A stretch of DNA of 64,000 nucleotides. Source: Rhodospirillales bacterium (lineage in GTDB: Bacteria; Pseudomonadota; Alphaproteobacteria; JAJFIK01). Under the pieces are notes generated by a model. The model had not been told where the DNA came from. It worked only from the letters and a program-made list of their open reading frames with translations, and searched no databases. The DNA lies in the NCBI GenBank assembly GCA_021775005.1, contig JAJFIK010000012.1, positions 1 to 64,000 on the forward strand, given 5' to 3'. Of the stretch, positions 56,300 to 60,445 are shown one piece after another. How positions within the stretch are numbered: position 1 is the stretch's first letter; each line of letters opens with the position of its first letter. The position numbers and the translations under genes are program-made.

Positions 56300-58705
56300 T
56301 TATTCAGCTGCATTTGAATGAACTGCCCGTTCCGGCAGGGCAAAGGTCGCAATGGTGCCTTGTCCTTCGGTGCTATCGAGGGTGACCCAGCCGCCGTGGA
56401 GATCAATGAAGCTTTTTACGAGCGCAAGGCCAAGTCCTGCGCGCCGACCGCCGGTGTCATCACTGGCGAAACTATCAAAGGCGCGGCGCAGAATTTCCGG
56501 CGGCAACCCCGGGCCGGTGTCTTTCACCCAGATTGTAACCTGTCCGGCTTCGCGGGTTGCGCCGAGGGTGATTTCGTCACCAGCGCGGCAATGGCGAATG
56601 GCATTGGACATCAAAGCGAATAGAACCTGACGCAAGCGTTTTTCGTCTGCATCCACCACATCAACGGCCTCGGAAATGTCATACCGGATGGGCACGGCAC
56701 TGTGCTCAGCGCGCGTTACCGCCATGCGTGCCGCACCCTCCAACAGGCCGCGCACATTTACCTCGGACACCTCAAGCGACAAAGTACCGGCCTCAATCAT
56801 GGCGAGGTCAAGAATGTCATCGATCAAATCGCGCAATTGATTGGCGCCGCGGATCACATCGCCGACGTATTCATTTTGCTTCTCATTGAGGTCGCCAGCA
56901 ATGCCGGTTTGCAGGAATTCTGAAAAGCCCAATATGGAGTTCAAAGGATTTCGCAATTGGTAGGAGACGTTTTCGATAAATGCAGATTTCAGTCGGTCAG
57001 CCGTTTCCAGCGCTTCGTTGCGTTCGCGAAGGGCGCGTCGAACTTTGTCCTGCGCTGTTTGATCAAGGAACGTCACCAAGGTTTGCCCGCTGCGCAACGG
57101 TTGCACCTCAAAAAGCAGCAACGAGCCATCGATCAGGCGCATCTCGCCCCTGTGATCGGTGCGCGCGTCTTCTCCGCCGGTCACCCGCGCGCGTATGGTG
57201 CGCCATATTGGCTCCTGGTCAAACAGGTCTTTGCAGAGGGTAATAACCTCGTTGATGTGAAGCGGGGTTGAGAGTTGATCAGGCTCCAGCCGCCATAGAG
57301 TTTCAAACGACATGTTGTGAAGGGCGAGGCGACCATCGGTGCCGAACACGGCCACGCCTTCGTCCAGGTGATCCAATGTTTTGCGCTGCACCTCCGCCAA
57401 CGTGTTGACCTGGCTCTCAAGGGCGTAGCGCTCGCTCACATCTTCATAAAGGAAGATCATGCCGCCTTGCGGGTGAGGCCGGGCGAGAATACGCACGGAA
57501 CGCCCGTCCGGCAGGTGCCAGGTATCGGTTTTGATGTCCGTCAATGTTGTGTAAAGCGAAAGGCGTTGATCTTTCCAGCCGCGGAAGTCTCGTTGTTCGG
57601 GTAAGCGGCGCGCTTCGCGAAGCCGGTCAAGAATTTCCCCGTGGGGCGGGTGAGTACCAAGCCATTCGCGATCAAGATCCCATAGGCGGGCAAAGGCGCG
57701 ATTGAAATATTGCAGCGTGCGCGCCTCATCAAAGATAGCAACGGCAGAGGTGAGGTGTTCTAATGTACTGTGATGGGCCTCGACCTTGCTGCGCAACTTT
57801 TGGTCAAGATTGTCTGCTTCGCTTTGGTCGATAGCAATGCCGCCGGAGCCATCGGGAAGGGGGAATTCCATCACGTCCATGGCACGGCGATCCCCGGCAG
57901 CAACGACATAGCGCCGGTCTTGCGTGGTCTCACCGTTTGTGATCTGCGCTAAACGCTCCTTTACACCGTCCGCCAGTTCCACCTGATCGTCGATGGCGTT
58001 TTCCAGGCTGGATGCATCCACCGCATGGGCATAGGCACTGTTGAGCCAGGTGAGTTTACCTGATCGGTCGCGAAGCCATGCTGGCTGTGGCAGGCATTGC
58101 AGCAGATCGGCCAATTGGCGGCGCTCCACTTCGGTACCCTCAAGCAACGCTGTCAAGCGTTTCACCTCGCGTAAAGCGCCAGAGACATCGCGGATCCGCA
58201 CCACAGCACGAGGGCCAACGGTTTCGCCAATAACCTCAAACTCACCCTTGTCTTTGCGCGTAAGCACAAGGGAAAAGGGCGTCCCGCGGGCGCGCAGATC
58301 ATCCAGTGCTACGGCAAAGCTGCTCAGGTCTTCGTTTCTGATGCGCATAAGTAGCGTGCGAAACTGCTCCGCTGGTGTGCGCTCTGCCTTGCCGAGCAAT
58401 GCTTCAAAATCTCCCATGACCCAATTGGGCGCCATGGGCACGATCCCCTTTGGTAGATAGGCGGTGGGTACGGGGAGGGATGGGGCCGCATGGCTAACCT
58501 CGCCCCACACCAGCACCAGGCCGGGGTCGGACGACAGCACCGCATCGGCGTGGTCGAGCTTGGCTTCTGAGTCTTTGAGTTTGGCTTTAAGGGATGTCTG
58601 AACCCGCCGCGCCTCAGCATTAGAGGCAGCTGCCCAGAAGGCGCAGGCCAGCGCCAGGCTGACCGCCCCCATAATCGGCACGAGACTCAGTATCTCTCCA
58701 CCCAC
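56300..58705 (-). CDS. divL: DivL-type PAS sensor pseudo-histidine kinase
   Basis: An 801-residue membrane-bound sensor. N-terminal helix (ILSLVPIMGAVSLALACAFWAAA), a coiled segment, several PAS domains (about residues 190-540) and a C-terminal kinase region: H-box FIENVSYQLRNPLNSILGFSE, N-box LRQVLFALMSNAIRHC, G1 IWVKDTGPGLPPEILRRAFDSF and G2 GRRAGLGLALVKSFIDLHGG. The residue that is histidine in ordinary kinases is Tyr582 (N-V-S-Y-Q-L-R), the hallmark of DivL. In Caulobacter DivL controls CckA and thereby CtrA phosphorylation; here the same pathway is inferred. The start is GTG at 58705; an ATG at 58672 is possible. Its upstream region is unusually rich in GANTC sites. Confidence 0.9.
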   Translation of the reverse strand: MGGEILSLVPIMGAVSLALACAFWAAASNAEARRVQTSLKAKLKDSEAKLDHADAVLSSDPGLVLVWGEVSHAAPSLPVPTAYLPKGIVPMAPNWVMGDFEALLGKAERTPAEQFRTLLMRIRNEDLSSFAVALDDLRARGTPFSLVLTRKDKGEFEVIGETVGPRAVVRIRDVSGALREVKRLTALLEGTEVERRQLADLLQCLPQPAWLRDRSGKLTWLNSAYAHAVDASSLENAIDDQVELADGVKERLAQITNGETTQDRRYVVAAGDRRAMDVMEFPLPDGSGGIAIDQSEADNLDQKLRSKVEAHHSTLEHLTSAVAIFDEARTLQYFNRAFARLWDLDREWLGTHPPHGEILDRLREARRLPEQRDFRGWKDQRLSLYTTLTDIKTDTWHLPDGRSVRILARPHPQGGMIFLYEDVSERYALESQVNTLAEVQRKTLDHLDEGVAVFGTDGRLALHNMSFETLWRLEPDQLSTPLHINEVITLCKDLFDQEPIWRTIRARVTGGEDARTDHRGEMRLIDGSLLLFEVQPLRSGQTLVTFLDQTAQDKVRRALRERNEALETADRLKSAFIENVSYQLRNPLNSILGFSEFLQTGIAGDLNEKQNEYVGDVIRGANQLRDLIDDILDLAMIEAGTLSLEVSEVNVRGLLEGAARMAVTRAEHSAVPIRYDISEAVDVVDADEKRLRQVLFALMSNAIRHCRAGDEITLGATREAGQVTIWVKDTGPGLPPEILRRAFDSFASDDTGGRRAGLGLALVKSFIDLHGGWVTLDSTEGQGTIATFALPERAVHSNAAE

Positions 58706-58749
58706 CTCAAAAGGGCCCCCGGGTACTCTACGTCGCTCTCACCTTGAGC

Positions 58750-58885
58750 GAATCACTTGAATACAAATGATTTGACTCCCGCGAGACTCAGGCAGCAAGG
58801 AAAATTCGTACTTTGTTAACCATTAAGGCAGGGGTGAGAGTCCGTACACAGACTCTCATGCCGCGAAGTGTTGCAATTCGGACTC
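58750..58885. promoter_or_regulatory. GANTC (CcrM) site cluster with CtrA-like half site upstream of divL
   Basis: Six GANTC sites lie in 136 bases: GAATC 58750, GACTC 58774, GACTC 58785, GAGTC 58838, GACTC 58851 and GACTC 58881; a seventh is at 58684 inside the divL start. The 58838 and 58851 sites fall in the arms of an 8-base inverted repeat, TGAGAGTC (58835-58842) and GACTCTCA (58851-58858). TTAACCAT, a CtrA-type half motif, is at 58816-58823. GANTC is the CcrM methyltransferase target in this class. The site counts are read directly; a role in divL control is inferred. Confidence 0.6.
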
Positions 58886-58925: not shown

Positions 58926-58957
58926 AAAAAATGGCCTCGCCCGATGAGGGCGAGGCC
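58926..58957 (-). terminator. rho-independent terminator after ahcY
   Basis: On the minus strand a perfect 10-base stem GGCCTCGCCC/GGGCGAGGCC (58957-58933), five-base loop, followed by A then TTTTTT. It ends the ahcY transcript before the divL promoter. Confidence 0.93.
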
Positions 58958-58986
58958 AGAAAGGAGCGTGTGAGTCGCGCCGCTGA

Positions 58987-60381
58987 TTAGTAGCGGTAGT
59001 GGTCAGTTTTGAACGGCCCGGTTTTGGGAACGCCGATATATGCAGACTGCTCATCAGTGAGTGTGGTCAGCTTCGCGCCCAGTTTGGCGAGATGAAGCTC
59101 GGCCACCTTCTCATCAAGATGCTTAGGCAGCACATAAACCTCGTTCTTGTACTTGTCGCCATGGACCCAAAGTTCGATCTGCGCCAGCACCTGATTGGTG
59201 AAACTGGCTGACATCACAAACGAAGGGTGCCCCGTAGCGTTGCCAAGATTGACGAGACGCCCTTCGCTGAGAAGGATCATGCGCTTGCCGTCAGGAAATT
59301 CGATCAAATCCACTTGGGGCTTCACGTTGGTCCATTTGAAATTCCTGAGGCCCTCAACCTGAATCTCATTGTCAAAGTGGCCGATGTTACAAACGATGGC
59401 CATGTCTTTCACTTTGCGCATATGGTCAACGGTCAGGATGTCTTTGTTACCGGTCGCGGTGACGATGATGTCGGCGCGGTGGATGTCTTCGTCCATGGTC
59501 ACGACTTCAAAGCCGTCCATGGCCGCTTGCAGGGCGCAGATGGGATCGATTTCTGTGACCATCACGCGCGCGCCGCCGCCTTTGAGCGATTGCGCGGAGC
59601 CTTTGCCCACATCGCCGTAACCGGCAACAAGAGCGATTTTACCGGCCATCATCACATCGGTGCCGCGGCGAATGCCGTCTATCAGCGATTCCTTGCAGCC
59701 ATATTTATTGTCGAACTTTGACTTGGTAACGCTGTCATTCACGTTGATCGCAGGAAAAGGCAGGGTGCCATTCTTTTGACGATCGTAAAGCCGCAACACA
59801 CCAGTGGTGGTTTCCTCGGAAACACCTTTAATGCTGGCTTTGACGCGTGAGTAATAGCCGGGGTCTTTTGCAATGCGCGCCTTGATGACCTTGAAGAGCT
59901 CCTCCTCTTCCTCATTGGAAGGTTTGGCGATGACGGAAGAATCTTTTTCTGCATCGGCACCAAGAAGGATCAACATGGTGGCGTCGCCGCCATCGTCGAG
60001 GATCATGTTGGCCACTTCGCCATTGGGCCATTCAAAAATCTTGTCGGCGAATTCCCAATATTCCTGCAGCGTTTCACCCTTGTGCGCGAACACAGGAACA
60101 CCAGTGGCGGCAATAGCAGCGGCAGCATGGTCTTGGGTCGAGTAAATATTGCACGACGCCCATCGCACTTCAGCGCCCAGCGCAGTAAGGGTTTCGATCA
60201 GCGCAGCGGTTTGGATCGTCATGTGCAACGACCCTGCAATGCGCGCGCCCTTGAGGGGTTGGCTGGGGCCATATTCTTCGCGCGTGGCCATCAGGCCCGG
60301 CATTTCGGTTTCAGCAATGTCGAGTTCGGTGCGGCCCCATTGGGCCAGGCCAATATCTTTCACGGCATAGTCGGCGGTCAT
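58987..60381 (-). CDS. ahcY: adenosylhomocysteinase
   Basis: A 464-residue NAD-dependent hydrolase of S-adenosylhomocysteine to adenosine and homocysteine, needed to keep methylation running. Motifs: [60 protein letters not shown]-binding [20 protein letters not shown] and the C-terminal KTDHYRY. The start at 60381 ([17 protein letters not shown]) has GGAG upstream. A promoter and a 28-base palindrome lie 65-122 bases upstream, and a strong terminator follows. Confidence 0.97.
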
Positions 60382-60445
60382 AATTGCTCCGTCAGGGATT
60401 TTTTGCTGGGGGCGGCATCGTGTGGAGCCCCGGAACACGGGCGGT

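Follow-up and report, generated by a model that had tools for sequence, protein, structure and literature searches.

A conserved cluster of GANTC sites upstream of divL with a core laid out like that of ccrM promoters in a Rhodospirillales genus

The window examined here is a stretch of 64,000 nucleotides from a Rhodospirillales bacterium, in which an open reading frame encoding 801 amino acids from a GTG start occupies positions 56300–58705 of the minus strand. We identify this frame as divL from its predicted PAS, HisKA and HATPase_c domains (Pfam) and from an H-box in which the phosphoacceptor histidine is replaced by tyrosine (VSYQLRNPL). Upstream on the same strand lies a second frame, called at 58987–60438 and assigned by Pfam to ahcY, the gene for S-adenosylhomocysteine hydrolase. 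Between ahcY and the region in front of divL there is a hairpin terminator of 11 pairs followed by TTTTTT (58932–58958, minus strand), and because ahcY ends in this terminator the GANTC sites described below fall in what should be the promoter region of divL. The placement in the divL promoter region that a sequence-only reading had given to the cluster is supported. The upstream strand folds better than shuffled sequences (z −3.0), at least partly because of the ahcY terminator and a palindrome, and RNA structure was rejected as an explanation of the region for that reason.

As had been claimed, seven GANTC sites lie within 202 bases (58684–58885), and the 136 noncoding bases at 58750–58885, upstream of divL, hold six of these. 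The seventh, at 58684–58688, is inside divL codons and is not conserved in the two other species compared. Numbered from the GTG start, the noncoding sites are at −49 (58750–58754), −73 (58774–58778), −84 (58785–58789), −137 (58838–58842), −150 (58851–58855) and −180 (58881–58885). The −49 site reads TGATTCG on the divL strand and sits within AAGTGATTCG; with TGAGTCT at −84 it makes up the matches to the extended GcrA motif YGAKTCK between −200 and +100 of the start codon.

The window as a whole holds 100 GANTC sites against 242 in dinucleotide shuffles, and since the motif is depleted the divL cluster stands out more than had first been assumed. In a 404-kb background made up of the window and 340 kb from 17 other contigs, with ORFs called by length only, the density was 1.25 per kb inside ORFs and 2.83 per kb outside them. 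At the noncoding rate 0.39 sites are expected per 136 bases, giving a Poisson probability of 3e-6 per stretch for at least six, and no stretch of this sample outside the divL cluster reached even four. A scan of the whole genome for three successive GANTC sites with no gap longer than 30 bases, a pattern that could miss looser clusters, returned 36 matches at about 27 places, many of them within long ORFs. The other strongest clusters precede a TPR-protein gene (six sites in 101 bp, contig C42), ccrM, which follows directly (five in 58 bp, C64), and an HU-family gene (five in 83 bp, C76). Dense GANTC clusters are therefore few in this genome. The check for common clusters, which had been named as able to refute the earlier interpretation, did not refute it; that interpretation is partly supported, and the observation itself is stronger than originally stated.

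Several GANTC-rich regions were observed elsewhere. Six sites in about 100 bp precede the TPR-protein gene in G000 (L076, 4045–4145) and again in G002 (L134, 2976–3076), and a dense cluster before the HU-family gene is kept in G000 (L078, 3224–3302) and G001 (L139, 2376–2470). G002 carries seven sites in 102 bp before an FtsB/DivIC-like gene (L135, 2742–2843), including a pair spaced by 11 bp that follows a TTGAC. At L087 (1738–1809) and L142 (2413–2464), GANTC and GTTAAC sequences occur upstream of a PAS histidine kinase, possibly a relative of PleC or DivJ, which adjoins an aminopeptidase-like gene.

Conservation was examined in three genomes of the order (the window species, G001 and G002), all of the same genus and all fragmented. 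DivL of G001 is 61% identical to the window copy, and the two parts of the G002 gene, which is split over two contigs, are 60% and 66% identical. The 226 bp upstream of divL contain 6, 6 and 8 GANTC sites in the window species, G001 and G002, respectively; among all 256 motifs of the form XXNXX the next best counts in the same 226 bp were 2–4. Numbered from the start codon, the sites are at −45, −68, −79, −153, −166 and −203 in G001, and at −50, −74, −85, −160, −173 and −202 in G002, with two additional sites at −65 and −143. In a three-way alignment 88% of the window's GANTC columns are invariant as opposed to 37% of other columns, a value that is if anything too low because the palindrome is flipped and so misplaced by the alignment. 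The best conserved blocks, each identical in all three species, are GGAGTCAAAT, which spans the −73 site, and AAGTGATTCG, which contains the TGATTCG; the −84 site is likewise kept in all three. The cluster upstream of divL is non-random and is conserved in this genus. Most other families of the class have between zero and two GANTC sites in this position. One genome of another family (G005, L035) has five before divL, among which are a TGATTCG and a pair spaced by 11 bp, and its divL is not beside ahcY.

Two of the sites, at −137 and −150, were said to be built into the arms of an inverted repeat, and this is borne out by arms at 58835–58845 and 58848–58858 with 10 of 11 positions paired. As GAGTC and GACTC pair with each other by definition, only the flanking pairs add evidence for the repeat. 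The element (58835–58858) has a 20-bp form, GAGAGTCTGTGTACGGACTC, at 58838–58857 on the minus strand; each genome of the three carries this 20-bp palindrome, GAGAGTCTGTRTRCGGACTC with the core GAGTC-N8-GACTC, at divL. Allowing up to three mismatches, we found it elsewhere in these genomes only once, at a two-mismatch place in G001; it is thus essentially present once per genome, at divL, and was rejected as a dispersed repeat. In G001 and G002 its orientation is opposite to that in the window. Inversion of the centre between complementary arms would perhaps explain this flip, while an inversion of the entire upstream segment is contradicted by the order of the flanking sites.

The CtrA-like sequence that had been noted among the sites proved less convincing. 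The motif itself, TTAACCAT, is present at 58816–58823, but the overlapping candidate box, TTCG-N7-TTAAC at 58805–58820 on the plus strand, would be a weak or half box at best. It matches the CtrA consensus TTAA-N7-TTAAC at seven of nine positions in the window and in G001, where it is the same, and at eight of nine in G002 (TTTA-N7-TTAAC). Overlap with a LexA/SOS promoter was rejected, GTTC-N7-GTTC being absent from all three species.

A search for a consensus sigma-70 promoter found none. By analogy with ccrM promoters we place a putative −10 element, TCAAAT, at 58770–58775 (minus strand), identical in all three species and overlapped by the −73 site, and a putative −35 element, TTGCTG, weak in the window, 17 bp upstream at 58793–58798 (minus strand); the −84 site would lie in the spacer between them. 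G001 and G002 have TCGACA in the −35 place, likewise 17 bp upstream of TCAAAT. The −73 and −84 sites start 11 bp apart (GANTC-N6-GANTC), and this twin arrangement is found at the divL core of all three species.

The ccrM promoters of the genus have a similar layout, TTGACG-N2/3-GANTC-N5/6-GANTC. The pattern TYGAC-N3/4-GANTC-N5/6-GANTC gave 29 matches in 59 genomes, and within the genus it matched only ccrM (in three of three genomes) and divL (in G001 and G002). Over 241 genomes of the class, with neighbours identified by BLAST, the TTGAC form had ccrM directly downstream in 44 genomes. An ANNNT follows the second GANTC in 41 of these 44 ccrM promoters as opposed to 3 of 45 other matches, and of these three, two precede ftsK (in G219 and in G138) and one a ribonucleotide reductase gene (in G138). 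This analysis thus yields a ccrM-type signature with a twin spacing of 5–6 bases, a TTGAC 2–4 bases upstream and ANNNT after the second site. As a class-wide observation it reads TTGACG-N2/4-GANTC-N5/6-GANTC-ANNNT (44 loci, L185–L281), and the −10 directly adjoins the second GANTC; in ccrM promoters a CANNNT −10 element, 17–18 bp from TTGACN, would begin with the last C of that site. A literature search outside subscription journals found this class-wide spacing nowhere described.

The Caulobacter ccrM promoter is described as holding two GANTC sites (PMC10073500). What divL shares with the ccrM type is a core pair of sites spaced by 11 bp and, a few bases before it, a hexamer resembling a −35; in this genus ccrM is the only other promoter found with this layout. 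Relative to the signature, divL has TCGACA (G001 and G002) or TTGCTG (the window) in place of TTGACG, and AAATC or AAATG in place of ANNNT after the second site; in the window, the −35 and the final base of its −10 region do not fit exactly. With its twin sites and neither an exact −35 nor ANNNT, the divL region resembles a ccrM promoter in its build, and we do not class it as one. It differs further in carrying additional upstream sites, the palindrome and the CtrA-like box. As the two upstream regions are laid out alike, both genes are probably switched by one replication-linked signal.

The regulators expected of such a system are encoded in the genome, GcrA on contig C78 (PF07750, 171.7 bits) and CcrM on C64 (N6_N4_Mtase and RAMA domains). 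In the 190 bp upstream of ctrA the three species have two or three GANTC sites, of which one precedes a TATA-like hexamer by a few bases, as expected of a GcrA-type promoter. Across the class GANTC is rare in genomes and enriched between genes (PMC3973325). GcrA binding is methylation-dependent, and mutation of GANTC cripples target promoters by 60–80% (PMC3667746); in the Caulobacter cycle, promoters whose GANTC falls between the −35 and the −10 become active at 40–60 min (PMC4287350). The motif TGATTCG, more broadly YGAKTCK, has been proposed as an extended motif for GcrA activation in C. crescentus, a preference not found in B. subvibrioides, and which features turn a promoter with GANTC into a target of CcrM/GcrA has been described as not clear (PMC7987155).

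A CcrM/GcrA reading of the divL cluster is plausible on these grounds and in principle known, since in both C. crescentus and B. subvibrioides divL has already been reported to belong to the GcrA regulon, and in most Caulobacterales its score marks it as a likely GcrA target (PMC7987155). The GcrA/CcrM promoters of that order (ctrA P1, mipZ, podJ, pleC and divL; PMC7987155) share with the present case GANTC in the promoter of a CtrA-pathway gene, a TGATTCG-type motif, conservation among orthologues, and genomes that encode both CcrM and GcrA. They have one or two sites, whereas here there are six to eight clustered sites, in another order that is represented here by one genus. What is new here is the ccrM-like core, the divL-specific palindrome and the lineage.

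We consider it probable that the cluster is the divL promoter and that this promoter is of the CcrM/GcrA type and timed by replication. Sigma-70 RNA polymerase would use the weak −35 and −10 elements at about 58798–58770, with transcription starting near 58763. GcrA, bound to sigma-70 and to methylated or hemimethylated GANTC, would raise initiation once the replication fork has passed, and late re-methylation by CcrM would close the window of divL expression. The same signal would then switch both the methylase and a pseudokinase that activates CckA and CtrA, tying the latter to replication. Feedback may come from the candidate CtrA half-box, which lies immediately before the −35, while another regulator might bind to the palindrome, or GcrA or CcrM might stack there.

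The main rival to GcrA-dependent activation has the opposite sign. Full methylation could directly lower divL transcription, with relief by hemimethylation after replication and no need for GcrA, and the gcrA promoter of A. tumefaciens, which has six GANTC sites in about 250 bp before a cell-cycle regulator gene, is repressed by methylation in this way, even in E. coli (PMC11514494). The resemblance extends to the richness in sites; there the gene is another one, methylation represses, and the section of that source consulted reports neither a palindrome nor a twin core. Placement of one divL site on the proposed −10 and another in the spacer is also compatible with repression, as m6A could disturb sigma binding. 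The conserved TGATTCG and the membership of divL in the GcrA regulon elsewhere (PMC7987155) point to activation instead, and we regard repression as unlikely, though it is the alternative to which we give most weight. It is more improbable still that the promoter is driven by CtrA while GANTC serves mainly another purpose, either MucR-like shielding and hypomethylation or the binding of a methylation-independent regulator to the palindrome. MucR does occlude GANTC sites in alphaproteobacterial promoters (PMC5172544), TTnn-N7-TTAAC is kept in all three species, and so is the palindrome at divL; however, the box is weak in two of the three, and the core GANTC sites rather than the box form the best conserved blocks.

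The least credible explanation is that the cluster has no function and that GANTC, being depleted in genes and tolerated between them, has grouped here by chance. Intergenic enrichment throughout the class (PMC3973325) and the other dense clusters of this genome would fit such an origin, but the number of sites is improbable even at the noncoding rate, and the cluster recurs at this position in G001 and G002, whose DivL proteins are only 60–66% identical to that of the window, with invariance concentrated in the sites. Conservation largely refutes this explanation, and we give it very little credence.

Returning to replication-timed control by GcrA and CcrM, we put forward a more specific version tentatively, as a possibility that falls short of being probable. 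In this order a core promoter of the ccrM type, with twin GANTC sites, may have come to control divL; the methylase and the pseudokinase that activates CckA would then share one methylation-timed switch, to which a divL-specific palindromic site pair, flipped in one lineage, would have been added; the twin-site core would be a class-wide hallmark of ccrM that is also found at a few other cell-cycle genes. The pattern TTGACG-N2/4-GANTC-N5/6-GANTC-ANNNT offers a testable grammar for those GANTC promoters that are targets of CcrM and GcrA. If this reading is right, the promoter grammar that sets the timing of the methylase would also couple CtrA activation to replication, and would do so outside Caulobacter.
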